Below are positions 27,125 through 32,171 of a DNA stretch of 64,000 nucleotides, one piece after another. Every line of letters starts with the position of its first letter. Position 1 is the first letter of the stretch. Origin of the DNA: Sinorhizobium glycinis (GTDB taxonomy: Bacteria; Pseudomonadota; Alphaproteobacteria; Rhizobiales; Rhizobiaceae); the NCBI RefSeq assembly GCF_001651865.1, contig NZ_LPUX01000061.1, positions 186,001 through 250,000 of the forward strand, in the 5' to 3' direction. Below the pieces are notes generated by a model that was not told where the DNA came from, made no database searches, and was given only the letters and a program-made list of their open reading frames with translations. The position numbers were made by a program, and so were the translations under genes.

Positions 27125-27835
27125 TCAACGAGACGGAAAAACGGCTTCCCAGACGCTCGTTTTTTCGAAACGCCAACCGGGTCTCGGCAGGTTGCGTGTA
27201 TTGGGCGTGTCAATCACCGTTTCGATAAGCATTTCTGCATCGCGAAGCTTCTGATTGAGGTTGTTTTCAAGCAGTATTGCAAGCACCTCGCTCGCCCTAC
27301 CTCGATCGGTTATCGCGGCCGATGCCAAGCTCTTGTAAGTTCGATCCTTGAAGAAGATCGCCTGCGCGGTCGTGAGCAAATGGTCATGTTCCGCAGACGT
27401 GATGAGTTCCAAATGCAAGCAGCGAGCCAGCGTCGCCCGGACATTCACGAGTGGCTCGCTCAATGGGAGAAAACCTAGCTCGGAGGGTCCATGAGATTGC
27501 GCGACTTCCGCATCATCCTCCAGCACGCCGTCCGCGAAGTCCTGGTAAATCTTTCCAATACCCACCATCCCAAACGCCGCACATTCCACCGCCCTCAGCG
27601 CCCCCATGCTAGCAGCGCCGTAGATGCAGACGCCTTGGCTAAGCCCGAACAAGATCTCCTTGTGCCAGATGGCCGGTACGTACTCGTAAATACCGTCGAT
27701 CAGTCCAATGACAGTCGCCCCGCCTTGAATCGCTTCATGGAAGTCTCCCTGCTTGGCAGGCGGGCGCAACTCGTAGTCAGGGCTGGGTGGCAAGCGCGCG
27801 CCGTAAAGGGTCGGGCCACCGAAAATCACTTTCAT
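27125..27835 (-). CDS. tfuA: TfuA-like protein, YcaO partner
   Basis: 236 aa. It begins with the 'VIFGGPTL' strand motif and carries the TfuA core 'DGIYEYVPAIWHKEILFGL' then 'GAASMGALRAVE' (residues 73-84) and 'YQDFADGVLEDDAEVA'. TfuA was named from the trifolitoxin locus of Rhizobium; in methanogens YcaO with TfuA installs thioamides, TfuA helping sulfur delivery. The ycaO gene is 2.7 kb away on the other strand, across two regulator genes. The GC content here looks lower than in the flanking genes. The ribosome site is weak, and a 20-codon ORF ends on this start codon (ATGA). Confidence 0.88.
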   Translation of the reverse strand: MKVIFGGPTLYGARLPPSPDYELRPPAKQGDFHEAIQGGATVIGLIDGIYEYVPAIWHKEILFGLSQGVCIYGAASMGALRAVECAAFGMVGIGKIYQDFADGVLEDDAEVAQSHGPSELGFLPLSEPLVNVRATLARCLHLELITSAEHDHLLTTAQAIFFKDRTYKSLASAAITDRGRASEVLAILLENNLNQKLRDAEMLIETVIDTPNTRNLPRPGWRFEKTSVWEAVFPSR

Positions 27836-27894
27836 CTTGTTCTCAATATTCTCTTCAACGCGCGAGGGGGTGGTGGATAAGAGTATCGTTGCAT
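27832..27894 (-). CDS. possible 20-aa leader ORF coupled to tfuA
   Basis: ATG at 27894 opens a 20-codon frame with 'YSYPPPPRALKRIL' whose TGA overlaps the tfuA ATG (ATGA). No ribosome site is evident. It may be a chance frame or a short coupling leader. Confidence 0.2.
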   Translation of the reverse strand: MQRYSYPPPPRALKRILRTR

Positions 27895-28127
27895 CGGCGA
27901 GTCACCATTACAACCCGTAACGCACGGAACAAGCGTTGCTCCTATCGCAACCGGCAAGCTGCGAACCCCTAAATTAGATCGCCCGATCGAGGTTCGAATT
28001 CATAACTCCCCCGCAGCCTGAACCGTACGTGAATCCTGTTCATGAAATGAAGCTTCGGGTTGCGTAGTCCCTGCTTTTCAAGCATCTTTGCAAAAGCAGC
28101 CAAGCGGATCGCGCGGGGGGGCGATAG

Positions 28128-28502
28128 ATGGGGCGCTCGCTCAGTGTCATCGACGTTTTCGTCGGTCGTCGCCTTCGCCTTGGCCGCGAAGCGCGTGGGA
28201 TGGACGAGGGGGAGTTCGCCGCGGCTCTGGGCGTGTCTGCCGGGCAGGTCCGCAGATACGAGAAGGGGGCGGATCGGGTGTGTGCGCATCGTCTGCAGGT
28301 AATGGCAAATCTTCTGCAGGTGCATTTTTCGTTTTTCTTCGAGGATGCGCCATCCTCGTCGGGCGATGGCTCGCCGAAGGCGGCTGAGGCGGGAGCGGAG
28401 ATCACCGCGACGTCGGTGTTCCCATCGAGAATTGTTCGGAGTCGGCGTGCCGTCGGGGCCACCCTCTGGGGCGGCCGCACCTTAGGCGTTTCGGTCGGTT
28501 GA
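28128..28502 (+). CDS. XRE-family helix-turn-helix regulator
   Basis: 124 aa. Residues about 13-67 form a Cro/CI-type HTH ('RLRLGREARGMDEGEFAAAL' then 'GVSAGQVRRYEKGADRV' and 'LQVMANLLQVHFSFFFED'). The rest is a Ser/Ala-rich tail without recognisable structure. Its TGA is separated by one base from the GTG of the TPR regulator, so the two are co-translated. It probably controls this operon and perhaps the divergent tfuA. This layout is inference. Confidence 0.82.
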   Translation: MGRSLSVIDVFVGRRLRLGREARGMDEGEFAAALGVSAGQVRRYEKGADRVCAHRLQVMANLLQVHFSFFFEDAPSSSGDGSPKAAEAGAEITATSVFPSRIVRSRRAVGATLWGGRTLGVSVG

Positions 28503-28503
28503 G

Positions 28504-30306
28504 GTGGTCGTGACGGGGGCCGGCTATCACCTCAGGACCTTCGGGGAGTTGCGGCTGACCGATGCCACCGGCGGCACAGTAGCCTGTCCGGAGCGCGGCC
28601 TCCTGATCCTCGCCTATCTTGTCGCGTCCGGGCAGAAGGTCGCCACCCGCGAAAAGGTCGCGACAATGGTCTGGCCGGACAGGGAAAAAAGCGTCGCGTT
28701 CAAGAATCTGCGCTCAACGCTCTGGCGCATGCAGCACCTGGTCACGCCCGCGGGTGCGGTTCTGTCCGCCACGGAGATGGAAGTCGCACTGGGGCCGGTC
28801 TCCTGCGATGTCTCCGATTTCGAGAGCATAAACGGCTCCGAAGAGAGTTTTTGCAATGCCCTCTCACTCTGGCGCGATACGTTCCTATCGTCGGCGGATC
28901 TGCCGCCCGGACGTTACGCGGCCTGGGTGATGGAAAAGCGACGTAGTTTCACGGAAGTACTGCGGAGCGGGCTCATCAAAGCGGAGCAGCGGTCCGCCGA
29001 CCGGTCGAAGCTGCGCGCCGCCTGTGCGCACTTCCTGGAGCACGATCCGGCGGATACCACCGTTCGTGAAATCCTGCAACGCGTCAGCTACGGCCCGCTG
29101 CTGAGTGTCAGACCGCCGGCCGTGGCCGTAAAGCAAGCTGAAGCGAACGCTCCGCAAGCGGTTCAGCTACCGCGCGTCGCACTGCTTCCACCGGCTGCCT
29201 TCGGCAGCGACCCGATGCTCCACGCCGTGAGCGTGGCGGTGATCGAGGATATAACGATCGGGCTCTGTGCTCTGCGCTCGATGACCGTTGTTGCGCCTTA
29301 TACAGCCGAGCGTATCCGCGAGGCGGATGATAAGGCAACGATACTCGAGAGGCACGGCGTCACCTATGCGCTTGATTGCCGTATGTCTGATCAAGGGCTT
29401 TTCACCCAACTGATCTACCTGCCTTCCGACCAGATCGTCTGGGCCGATCGCTTTCTGATCTCGCCCGCCGGCCTCCTCAAGCAGCGTCAAGAGATCGCCT
29501 ACCACGTCGCACGGGCCGTTACCCAGCAGGTGGAGACCGGGCGGGCGGAGCACCTCGACTACCTGGCGCATCCGGAAGCTTATTACGCCTATCTTGGCGG
29601 GCTCAGACACCTCTCTGGTCTCGGCTTGCCGGATGTTCGCAGGGCGCGCCATGAGTTTCGGGATGCGCTGAAGCACAAGCACGATTTTGCGCAGGCGCTG
29701 AGCGGCATGGCACGTACCTATGTCACCGAGTGGCTGCTGACCGCACGGGCGGATGATGAACTCCTGTCCGTGGCGGAGCGGCATGCCAAGGACGCGATCG
29801 GGAGCAACGAGGCCCTGCCCACGGCACATCGCGAAATTGGTGTCGTCAAGCTTTATCAGGGCGACCTCGACGAAAGCCTGGCGGCGCTGGATCGCGCCGA
29901 GCAATTGGGTCCCCACTATGCCGATGTTCTCTACAGCCACGCCGATACGCTCGTTCATGCCTCCCGTCCCGGCGAGGCCTTGGAAAAGCTTGGCAACGCG
30001 ATCTCCCTCAATCCGCTGGCGCCCGACGCCTATCTATGGAGTGCAGCGGGGGCCAGCTACTTCCTCGGGGAATACGAGCAGGCCATAGGCTTTGCCCACG
30101 ACATGAAGGACAAGTCGCCGGCAGACAGGATCGTTGCCGCGAGCTGGGCAATGTTGGGCGACCGCAAGAAGGCTCGCCAGCACAGGATACGGGCATTGAA
30201 GGCCAATCCGACTTTCGACGTCGACAAATGGCTCGCCGTTATTCCTTTCAAGGAGCAGTGGCAGAAAGATCTCTATCGTGAGGGCCTGAAAAAGGCTGGT
30301 TTTTAA
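28504..30306 (+). CDS. OmpR/SARP-type winged-helix regulator with TolB-like and TPR regions
   Basis: 600 aa. The N-terminal ~95 residues resemble the OmpR/SARP DNA-binding winged helix ('RTFGELRLTDATGG', 'LLILAYLVASGQKVATREKV', 'NLRSTLWRMQHLV'). A BTAD-like helical segment follows to about residue 200. Residues about 220-345 resemble the TolB-like domain of CadC-type and adenylate-cyclase-linked regulators ('VALLPPAAF', 'QLIYLPSDQIVWADRF'). The C-terminal half contains TPR-like helix pairs ('HREIGVVKLYQGDLDESLAA', 'YSHADTLVHASRPGEALEKL'). There is no membrane segment. GTG 28504 is used; GTG 28510 is possible. It is followed after 19 bases by the 71-aa gene. Confidence 0.82.
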   Translation: MVVTGAGYHLRTFGELRLTDATGGTVACPERGLLILAYLVASGQKVATREKVATMVWPDREKSVAFKNLRSTLWRMQHLVTPAGAVLSATEMEVALGPVSCDVSDFESINGSEESFCNALSLWRDTFLSSADLPPGRYAAWVMEKRRSFTEVLRSGLIKAEQRSADRSKLRAACAHFLEHDPADTTVREILQRVSYGPLLSVRPPAVAVKQAEANAPQAVQLPRVALLPPAAFGSDPMLHAVSVAVIEDITIGLCALRSMTVVAPYTAERIREADDKATILERHGVTYALDCRMSDQGLFTQLIYLPSDQIVWADRFLISPAGLLKQRQEIAYHVARAVTQQVETGRAEHLDYLAHPEAYYAYLGGLRHLSGLGLPDVRRARHEFRDALKHKHDFAQALSGMARTYVTEWLLTARADDELLSVAERHAKDAIGSNEALPTAHREIGVVKLYQGDLDESLAALDRAEQLGPHYADVLYSHADTLVHASRPGEALEKLGNAISLNPLAPDAYLWSAAGASYFLGEYEQAIGFAHDMKDKSPADRIVAASWAMLGDRKKARQHRIRALKANPTFDVDKWLAVIPFKEQWQKDLYREGLKKAGF

Positions 30307-30325
30307 TCTGGCTGGGGGAACCAAT

Positions 30326-30541
30326 ATGAGCAAAGTGGTTGTGATCGGAATTCCGGGGGAACCGGGCTTGTGGATGGCTGATCTTGGAAACGGAACGGTA
30401 ACACCGCTCAACGAGGTGACGGGCGATCTGGCGACTGTAAATGGCTTTCGAAAGCTGGGAAGCACCTTCGTCAACAACATCGATCTAGCCATCGCAGTGA
30501 CGTCGGTCGAGGACGTCTTTGCAGGTCACGTGGACAGTTGA
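30326..30541 (+). CDS. 71-aa peptide overlapping ycaO, candidate YcaO substrate
   Basis: 71 aa, preceded by GGGGGA nine bases before ATG 30326. It has no Cys, nine Gly, six Thr and four Ser. The N-terminus 'MSKVVVIGIPGEPGLWMADL' is hydrophobic with Gly turns; the C-terminus is acidic and ends 'AGHVDS'. I do not recognise the family. Its TGA overlaps the TTG start of ycaO (TTGA), so the two proteins are made in coupled amounts. A small gene right before a YcaO is the usual place for a RiPP precursor, but it could instead be a small folded accessory protein, since no leader/core cleavage site (GG or similar near the C-terminus) is clear. Confidence 0.7.
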   Translation: MSKVVVIGIPGEPGLWMADLGNGTVTPLNEVTGDLATVNGFRKLGSTFVNNIDLAIAVTSVEDVFAGHVDS

Positions 30542-31752
30542 TCTGCCACGACATCAGAGAGCGGGCGAGCCTGGGCAACGCTTACTCCGACAGGGTGTGC
30601 GACCCAGCGGAAACATTCGATCGCGTTCGGCCTCACCTTGCCGCTTTTGGCGTGACGCGCGTCGCCCGGCATACGGGGCTCGACAAGGTCGGGATCCCGG
30701 TCTGGTGCGCCTACACGCCGAATTCGCGGTCGATCGTCGTGGCCCAGGGAAAGGGGCTGACGGACGCTGATGCCCGGACCTCGGCGGCGATGGAGGCGCT
30801 GGAGCGTGCCGTCGCCGGCGAGCCCGCCATCGAGAGCTTCATCGAAACGGCAGAAAACTTGCGTGCCGCCGGTCGGGCCTTCGATCCGCTGAACGGGCTG
30901 ATCGCCGCCGGCCAGGGCGATATCCGTCCGGACGAGGAAATCGAATGGGTCCGCGGCGCCGACCTGGCCTCCGGTCGGGACGTCTTCGTGCCGCTCGAAG
31001 CGGTGCTTCTCGACCGCACGAGACGATCGCGTTTCTGGATGTCGTCGGATGGGCTCGCGTCGGGGAACATCATGGAGGAGGCGATCCTGCACGGCCTGCT
31101 CGAGCGTGTCGAACGCGACGCACACATTCTCTGGCGCGTGTCCAGTCAGGAAGCCCGCCACCGGGCATGCGTCGTGGCGGAGGATCTCGATGACCCGGCA
31201 CTCGACGCGCTCGTCGCCCGCATCGGGGAGGCGGAACTCGAATTGCGGCTTTTCGACATCACCAGCGACACCGGCATTCCGTGCTTCCTCGCGCTTCTCG
31301 GTCCGCGCGGCGCGGCGACCGCCAGCAATATCCGCTACGTCGAGGTCACGAGCGGTTGTGGGGCGCACCCTTCCGCCGTCCGGGCCGCGATCCGGGCGGT
31401 GACGGAGGCGGCGCAGTCGCGGCTCACCTATATCGGTGGCGCCCGCGATGACGTCTACGCGGAAACCTTCGACCGGCCATTGCCGGAATCGACGCGGCGC
31501 GCCTTTCTCGCAACGCCGCGACCGATCACGACCCCGCTCGCCCGCGCCGGCACGCATGTCGAGGCATTGCTGAGCCGCGCCATCTCCTGCGTGACGAAGG
31601 CGGGTGTACGGTCCGTCGTCGCGGTTCCCCTCTCTCGCGACGATCTGCCCTTCGCTGTCGTCAAGGTGCTCGTCCCGGACCTTGAGAATCCGGACGGCGA
31701 GCGAGCGCGTCGCTTCGGGCCTCGCGCGCTGTCGAAGGCGATTTCGACCTGA
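30538..31752 (+). CDS. ycaO: YcaO-domain protein (TfuA-associated)
   Basis: 404 aa. YcaO family features are clear: 'GKGLTDADARTSAAMEALER' (ATP-binding Glu helix, about residues 75-95), 'SDGLASGNIMEEAILHGLLE', 'ERVERDAHILW', and 'SGCGAHPSAVRAAIRAVTEA' later. YcaO enzymes use ATP to phosphorylate a peptide amide, giving azolines with Cys/Ser/Thr side chains or thioamides with external sulfide. The C-terminus ends 'ALSKAIST' and lacks the PxPxP tail of azoline-forming cyclodehydratases; no E1-like or ocin-ThiF partner is nearby. With tfuA beside it, thioamidation or a related backbone change is the better guess. TTG 30538 overlaps the stop of the 71-aa gene. Confidence 0.9.
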   Translation: MICHDIRERASLGNAYSDRVCDPAETFDRVRPHLAAFGVTRVARHTGLDKVGIPVWCAYTPNSRSIVVAQGKGLTDADARTSAAMEALERAVAGEPAIESFIETAENLRAAGRAFDPLNGLIAAGQGDIRPDEEIEWVRGADLASGRDVFVPLEAVLLDRTRRSRFWMSSDGLASGNIMEEAILHGLLERVERDAHILWRVSSQEARHRACVVAEDLDDPALDALVARIGEAELELRLFDITSDTGIPCFLALLGPRGAATASNIRYVEVTSGCGAHPSAVRAAIRAVTEAAQSRLTYIGGARDDVYAETFDRPLPESTRRAFLATPRPITTPLARAGTHVEALLSRAISCVTKAGVRSVVAVPLSRDDLPFAVVKVLVPDLENPDGERARRFGPRALSKAIST

Positions 31753-31949
31753 GGCAGCGCTGCGCTCGAAGTCTCCTGTGCCGAAGGGAACTGCACCGCG
31801 GGGCGAACGGGGGTACGTTTTCCTGAGCCCAGATCGGTGAAATTTGTCGCGTATCACCACTGATGGATGTGCAACGCTTGTGCAACGCGCGCGAACGGAA
31901 ATTTCATCTATAGTCCCTTGCGAGGGTAGTAAACGCAATGGGGGTTCGA

Positions 31950-32171
31950 ATGACTCATTCTGTCTCGGCAGCCGCCGAACATGAAGCGGAACTTGCGAGC
32001 ATTGCCAGAATGCTGGCCCATATCCGCGACAGTGCCCGCGCACTAGATGCGCAAGCCCTGGAATATTGCATCGACATGGCGCTTCAGGCTGTCGCCAACG
32101 AACTGCGCGATCGGCGCGACTTCGCCGGCACAGGAGCCGATCTGGCCGGCGGCTGTCGTCTGCTGCAGTGA
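31950..32171 (+). CDS. small conserved rhizobial-type hypothetical protein
   Basis: 73 aa, mostly helical: 'ELASIARMLAHIRDSARALD' and 'LEYCIDMALQAVANELRD' predict two amphipathic helices. A GGGG run at 31941-31944 precedes ATG 31950. It lies 197 bases after ycaO, too far to be sure of co-transcription, and is followed by a palindromic element. I know similar small rhizobial proteins but no function for them. Confidence 0.65.
   Translation: MTHSVSAAAEHEAELASIARMLAHIRDSARALDAQALEYCIDMALQAVANELRDRRDFAGTGADLAGGCRLLQ

Follow-up and report, generated by a model that had tools for sequence, protein, structure and literature searches.

A 64,000-nucleotide stretch of the Sinorhizobium glycinis genome (the window) carries a compact gene cassette that is probably a system for making a thioamidated ribosomally synthesized and post-translationally modified peptide (RiPP), with a 71-amino-acid (aa) product as the precursor and a YcaO enzyme and its partner TfuA as the modifying enzymes. 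We favor this reading because thiovarsolin offers a precedent in which precursor, YcaO and TfuA suffice, the core is repeated and the cluster holds no protease. Three hallmarks of the YcaO-TfuA thioamidated RiPP class are present, namely a YcaO enzyme, a TfuA partner in the genome and an adjoining gene for a precursor with leader and core. A preliminary description of this DNA had proposed a regulated YcaO-TfuA system that modifies the 71-aa product or a distant protein; our analysis supports such a system, with the 71-aa product as its likely substrate. The gene layout it gave was confirmed throughout: tfuA on the minus strand and, divergent from it, an operon of an XRE regulator, a TPR regulator, the peptide and ycaO, with one base between the two regulator genes, 19 bases between the TPR regulator and peptide genes, and a 4-base overlap of the ycaO start with the peptide stop. 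It had overlooked a sixth gene at 31938–32171. The window locus is one copy of a conserved cassette, and its features are as follows.

27125..27835, minus strand: tfuA, 236 aa, a cassette-type TfuA (Pfam TfuA, 7.2e-42)
27835..27975, minus strand: probably the 3'-terminal remnant of another ycaO (deletion scar), 47 codons (tblastn)
28128..28502, plus strand: XRE-family regulator, 124 aa (Pfam HTH_3, 1.2e-7)
28504..30306, plus strand: SARP/BTAD-like TPR regulator, 600 aa (weak Pfam TPR matches)
30326..30541, plus strand: small precursor peptide, 71 aa, with leader ~1-58 and C-terminal core FAGHVDS
30538..31752, plus strand: ycaO, 404 aa, TTG start (Pfam YcaO, 5.8e-67)
31938..32171, plus strand: sixth cassette gene, 77 aa (iterated profile search)

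Alignment of the peptide with its relatives reveals a leader-core anatomy: the first ~50–58 residues are conserved in pattern and the C-terminus bears the motif [SAG]-G-x-hydrophobic-[D/E]. A slightly wider form of this motif occurs in the tails of 72 of 83 peptides split into leader and tail; when the tails were shuffled 1000 times, it turned up in 8.1 of 83 on average and never in more than 17. This count covers 83 of the 92 distinct peptides; the boundary pattern failed for the nine that were dropped, of which, by eye, seven end in the motif and two are cut-off versions of the repeat-bearing peptides of loci L167 and L168. In several lineages the motif is repeated, with lineage-specific sequence in the repeated cores: L029 has six complete units plus an incomplete seventh, L027, L028 and L073 have four units, L075, L080, L081 and L167 three, and L030, L031 and L168 two; L022 and L024-L026 show two or three less strict units. 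Apparent double copies in L093, L094 and L097 are overlaps of the search expression and not repeats. At two loci the first peptide is followed by a second one (L116, 7646-8014; L118, 6674-7102) that has a related leader start and a different core, built from a unit like DGRSDPSDRAFSF, of which L116 has four copies and L118 five and an incomplete one. An AlphaFold2 model of the window peptide (mean predicted local distance difference test (pLDDT) score 63, nine sequences) has a beta-beta-beta-alpha N-terminus with scores of ~70–82 and a tail scoring below 50 from residue 49. Foldseek returned nothing significant for this model, and the RiPP recognition elements among its top matches, at E 1.2–1.7, are no evidence. 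The peptide matched no Pfam or NCBIfam family, and a profile search of the PDB gave only chance-like matches, designed proteins among them. The core was also considered as a metal binder and rejected as one, because the site of the FAGHVDS histidine carries His in just 29 of the 99 occurrences of the motif.

The core varies together with the enzyme. Over 47 loci the partial correlation of core with YcaO distances, given the TPR regulator and TfuA, is r=0.29, a value reached in 0/1000 permutations, whereas with the other proteins controlled that of core with TfuA is -0.01 and that of core with the TPR regulator 0.05 (143/1000). The leader correlates weakly with all three proteins (0.17–0.22). 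With 65 loci, core and YcaO given the TPR regulator correlate at 0.36 (0/2000), and core and TPR regulator given YcaO at 0.02 (585/2000). All runs exclude L063-L068 and all motif-less peptides and use raw distances, with phylogeny not modelled. Such covariation fits YcaO as an enzyme acting on the core; it does not support the idea that the TPR regulator binds the core as a ligand.

By sequence, the enzymes resemble known thioamide-forming proteins. The Pfam match of YcaO covers the whole profile, and its best NCBIfam match is the McrA-glycine thioamidation YcaO (TIGR03266), at 202.2 bits against a cut-off of 365. The nearest solved YcaO is MJ1094 (PDB 6pe3, E 6.8e-30), in an alignment that spans conserved Glu/Arg stretches, consistent with the ATP-binding motifs of the superfamily. 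TfuA scores 171.7 bits with the McrA-type TfuA model NF033432 (cut-off 235.2), and its closest solved structure is a TfuA-domain protein (PDB 6xp8, E 7e-36).

The cassette recurs well beyond the window. With the window peptide as query, 15 of 297 genomes drawn from the order gave matches; they belong to the window's family and three further families. A profile built on 11 peptides matched 49 of 297 family genomes and all 33 Sinorhizobium genomes searched. Draws of 337 genomes of the class and 299 of the phylum, which are limited samples, yielded the peptide only in the window's own genome and only in genomes of its own family, respectively. YcaO at E<=1e-60 is present in 52 of the 297 family genomes, a set that contains all 49 with the peptide; the remaining three belong to one genus and have a divergent YcaO (43–44% identity). 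The genome identifiers show that these peptide and YcaO counts come from the same draw of 297 family genomes. Named YcaO relatives, up to 87% identical, are from Sinorhizobium/Ensifer. All 71 peptide loci have the TPR regulator gene immediately before the peptide gene on the same strand. A downstream ycaO is present in 66 of them, a same-strand XRE gene in 56 and tfuA on the peptide's strand in 55, and all five genes are collinear in 46, most commonly in the order XRE - SARP/TPR - peptide - ycaO - tfuA. Some genomes are counted twice in this set, the contigs L063-L068 overlap with genomes drawn under G handles, and L031 stops at a contig end, with ycaO and tfuA on another contig of its genome. 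Rates of nonsynonymous substitution (dN) are well below synonymous rates (dS) for the peptide, YcaO, the TPR regulator and the downstream sixth gene in comparison with five Sinorhizobium/Ensifer relatives, although peptide dS is saturated for one of them, L067. One extra peptide match, in two overlapping pieces (G937:C21:27840-28051), is possibly a decaying copy.

At divergent loci the place of the peptide is taken by something else. In 7/7 such loci the regulator-ycaO slot encodes another peptide; three of these loci are in genomes of one genus and four are second copies in another genus. The substitute peptides were picked by eye from open reading frames (ORFs) in the gap, and they measure 42–47 aa from the likely start, in open frames of 42–65 aa. 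In these loci, then, the slot is always filled and its content can be exchanged. The tiny slot peptides are exemplified by L228 (6314-6442) and L231 (5954-6097), with equivalents in L210, L229, L230, L232 and L233; this type has a conserved C-terminus, NATSNIVHAVRFR or ENLTHALKFR, and the XRE gene is convergent there.

Each of the 33 Sinorhizobium genomes carries exactly one cassette-type TfuA (E<=7e-53; next best match 1.5e-45) together with at least one cassette YcaO and peptide. The gene directly follows ycaO in 11 of these genomes and lies on another contig or at least 1.4 Mb from ycaO in 17; an XRE gene adjoins the distant tfuA in all 11 cases retrieved from those 17. In many S. meliloti records TfuA is located on a replicon of mostly 1.57–1.70 Mb, and in five of the 33 genomes, the window's included, the tfuA allele is a different one. 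Retention of a single TfuA in each genome, even after relocation or replacement of the gene, points to a maintained function more than to an occasional antibiotic, and presence in all genomes searched of the genus likewise points to a maintained role. One record (CP090106.1, L206) is labelled pSymB, yet it is 3.7 Mb long and may be a mislabelled chromosome.

In a TfuA tree built by a 'quick' method, the window copy joins those of G919, G920, G933 and G936 with a Shimodaira-Hasegawa-like approximate likelihood ratio test (SH-aLRT) support of 99, apart from the type of the other genus genomes. Its divergent orientation is an exception among the loci compared and is best read as the mark of what remains of a second peptide-ycaO-tfuA-like unit, because a 47-codon stretch resembling the end of a ycaO precedes the gene. 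This stretch (27835-27975, minus strand) resembles the C-terminus of the L167/L168 YcaO (tblastn, 40% over 47 columns, E 0.007–0.008 with a 600-base subject). In L168 the regulators and a peptide lie on one strand and, back to back with them, a peptide-ycaO-tfuA unit on the other; ycaO and tfuA overlap there by 4 bases, an arrangement like that of the remnant and tfuA in the window. The window's own genome also holds a second, distant ycaO-tfuA pair (L032, C61, 6395-12761) whose YcaO shows 32% identity and whose TfuA falls in a separate clade. The gene before the pair encodes a 1022-aa protein that combines guanylate-cyclase and AAA_16 domains, the gene after it a 413-aa protein lacking Pfam matches, and a peptide-profile search at this pair gave no match.

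The AlphaFold2 model of the TPR regulator (mean pLDDT 70, predicted template modelling score 0.43) matches TPR proteins in Foldseek (best E 1.7e-8). We read the model as a winged helix-turn-helix (HTH) at ~8-101, BTAD-like helices at 104-196, an alpha/beta region at 224-317 and a TPR superhelix at 324-597, where names other than TPR are a reading of the model and not database matches; the HTH looks winged and not of the XRE type. Annotation in public records is misleading for this protein ('adenylate cyclase' or 'peptide antibiotic resistance protein' in L206, L207 and others); some TfuA proteins are annotated 'antibiotic resistance protein' and the peptide 'hypothetical'. A homologue of the sixth gene was found by iterated profile search in 84 of 102 loci, mostly directly after tfuA or ycaO and ~4 kb away in L078 and L221. 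Its 77-aa product matches no Pfam or NCBIfam family and, as we read its sequence, appears helical.

We propose that the XRE and SARP/TPR proteins would control expression of the cassette, and that the 71-aa precursor would combine a partly folded N-terminal leader with a short disordered C-terminal core, which is FAGHVDS in the window. YcaO would bind leader and core and, with ATP and sulphur supplied with the aid of TfuA, would convert a backbone amide to a thioamide, the likeliest site being the core glycine or an adjacent position. A peptide of ~5–8 residues would then be freed by housekeeping proteases. From named homologues we infer that TfuA may help to deliver sulphur to YcaO; a TfuA is described as a hydrolase that aids sulphide delivery (PMC13063428).

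Several observations weigh against a thioamidated RiPP. The tail motif was chosen post hoc from the data, is present in 25 of the 83 leaders as well, and is missing from 11 of the 83 tails. Both YcaO and TfuA fall under the NCBIfam cut-offs of the McrA thioamidation equivalogs. Regulator and peptide occur without ycaO at seven loci (L021, L092, L110, L111, L170, L223 and L227), in genomes that carry ycaO and tfuA elsewhere, and ycaO occurs without an adjoining peptide at four (L208, L209, L225 and L226), in genomes that have the peptide elsewhere; enzyme and substrate therefore meet in trans at these, or those peptides stay unmodified. The preliminary description had proposed to ask whether the peptide and both regulators are always present near close ycaO homologues, and named loci with ycaO and tfuA but without them as evidence against the system. 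In the comparison the TPR regulator accompanies the peptide in all 71 peptide loci, YcaO in 66 and the same-strand XRE gene in 56. Loci of the adverse kind exist in part: the divergent loci combine regulator, YcaO and TfuA with a different peptide, four ycaO loci have no peptide beside them, and seven loci pair regulator and peptide without ycaO.

The preliminary description had offered a distant protein as the alternative substrate. YcaO and TfuA would then thioamidate a cellular protein such as McrA or uL16, and the small peptide would be an adaptor or recognition element, a role with which its modelled beta-beta-beta-alpha N-terminus would agree. The two enzymes are most like McrA-glycine thioamidation proteins, and Escherichia coli YcaO modifies uL16 (PMC13063428). 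However, the window YcaO scores 12.2 bits with the E. coli-type model, where the cut-off is 700, TfuA and a peptide are present here while no small ORF is reported near E. coli ycaO (PMC13063428), and the resemblance of the peptide model to RiPP recognition elements is insignificant (E 1.2 and above). The leader and repeated core of the coupled peptide, together with a core that varies with YcaO, make a distant substrate less likely; lineage-specific C-terminal repeats, exchange of whole peptides in the slot, second peptides and core-YcaO covariation are precursor traits, and we regard this alternative as very improbable. Scarcely better are the chances that YcaO forms an azoline or amidine in the core, like the stand-alone YcaO systems of trifolitoxin and bottromycin. 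In favor of this, Ser precedes the core Gly in 49 of the 99 occurrences of the motif, TfuA has been implicated in making trifolitoxin, and D proteins are able to function with no C protein (PMC4603692). Against it, Gly or Ala takes that position in 48 of the 99, and among families the thioamide-forming type matches best. Azoles are disfavored because the residue before Gly is variable and the tails contain two Cys in 1652 residues. That this is not a standard azole cluster, as the preliminary description had concluded, is borne out, since the ycaO C-terminus lacks PxPxP, core Cys is nearly absent and azole-type neighbors are missing: no azoline dehydrogenase, protease or exporter was seen among the window neighbors scanned within ~5 kb, and no E1-like or C protein or dehydrogenase apart from respiratory complex I subunits. 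The locus thus departs from the linear azol(in)e peptides (thiazole/oxazole-modified microcins, TOMMs), and its Ser is not invariant.

A less remote, though still unlikely, explanation is that the peptide, modified or not, is a ligand of the TPR regulator, pheromone-like as in RRNPP systems, which would be compatible with a thioamidated RiPP. In RRNPP operons the gene for the TPR receptor precedes one for a small protein whose C-terminal end is the signal, and the layout here, an HTH-TPR gene followed by a small gene, resembles them; the pair is also kept in the seven ycaO-less loci. Against this, the correlation of core with TPR regulator is gone once YcaO is controlled (both data sets above), no secretion signal is seen by eye in the leader, and regulators commonly adjoin biosynthetic genes without binding the product. 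Nor does an exporter or protease gene recur at a fixed place by clustering of flanking ORFs in 68 loci. The clusters, of which the 25 largest were considered and in which choice of the longest ORF can overlook genes in GC-rich DNA, comprise the cassette genes themselves, shadow ORFs on the antisense strand and a single loose cluster present in 20 of 68 loci. Of its 24 members 10 were scanned; all 10 are ABC-transporter ATPases of various kinds (MalK-like, oligopeptide, SbmA/BacA-related and others) that differ in position and strand. An exporter as part of the cassette was rejected on this mixture of kinds, positions and strands, and the ATPases were taken as ordinary neighbors; a general exporter may serve the cassette. 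On a more speculative note, with similarly modest odds, the thioamidated peptide of 5–8 residues cut from the leader-core precursor might be read by the upstream-encoded TPR regulator in a signalling circuit that is genus-wide in Sinorhizobium and scattered over Hyphomicrobiales, its parts dispersed in Sinorhizobium such that enzyme-less regulator-peptide pairs would be served in trans by one YcaO and one TfuA. Other genes within ~5 kb of the cassette in the window encode complex I subunits and CBS, CsbD, DUF1194, glycoamylase-like and FhuF-like proteins.

All searched genomes (33/33) of the genetically tractable genus Sinorhizobium carry this compact cassette, for which a specific substrate and core can be predicted, and it also occurs in three other families of the order; part of the long list of rhizobial TfuA clusters thereby becomes directly testable in a model strain. 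All thioamidated YcaO-TfuA RiPPs known by 2021 came from Actinobacteria (PMC8120280). YcaO-TfuA clusters of Rhizobium and Sinorhizobium were catalogued as a class in that year; the survey describes TfuA-related RiPP clusters in Rhizobium, Agrobacterium and Sinorhizobium, with more than 500 clusters in Rhizobium and 797 precursor families (PMC8120280). The rhizobial clusters belong to the same class as the window cassette, and some of those in Sinorhizobium have a heme-oxygenase-like gene. The Results text of the survey gives no description of this precursor family, its repeated core, the two regulators, the sixth gene or a tfuA that lies apart from ycaO, although the window's peptide family may be among the 797 in its supplements. 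No description of this precursor family or cassette was recognised among the matches listed in the searched literature, and those supplements may hold one. The label 'undescribed' in the preliminary description thus stands for the precursor family and cassette in searchable texts, but not for the class.

Among known systems, McrA thioamidation by YcaO-TfuA in methanogens provides the nearest curated families (TIGR03266 and NF033432) and the nearest structure (MJ1094); the window enzymes score below both equivalog cut-offs, and a small peptide is co-encoded here. In the case of trifolitoxin, tfuA is unlinked to the tfx operon, and the tfx precursor is not known to be related to the window peptide. 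Trifolitoxin of Rhizobium anhuiense T24 is otherwise similar in being a rhizobial peptide with a YcaO-type enzyme and an implicated TfuA (PMC4603692). The cassette is also similar in makeup to the thiovarsolin (var) cluster of Streptomyces varsoviensis, for which precursor, YcaO and TfuA are reported to be sufficient and which lacks a protease (PMC6511847); the two share this gene set, a single core to several imperfect repeats, the lack of a cluster protease and a very short core. None of the var-type accessory genes was found among the scanned window neighbors or recurring in the 68 loci, where no search was aimed at heme oxygenase or VarA. The var core is APR/GPR, the producer belongs to another phylum, and var clusters have a heme oxygenase and some an amidinotransferase and an ATP-grasp ligase, whereas the rhizobial cassette instead has SARP/TPR and XRE regulators and the 77-aa protein.

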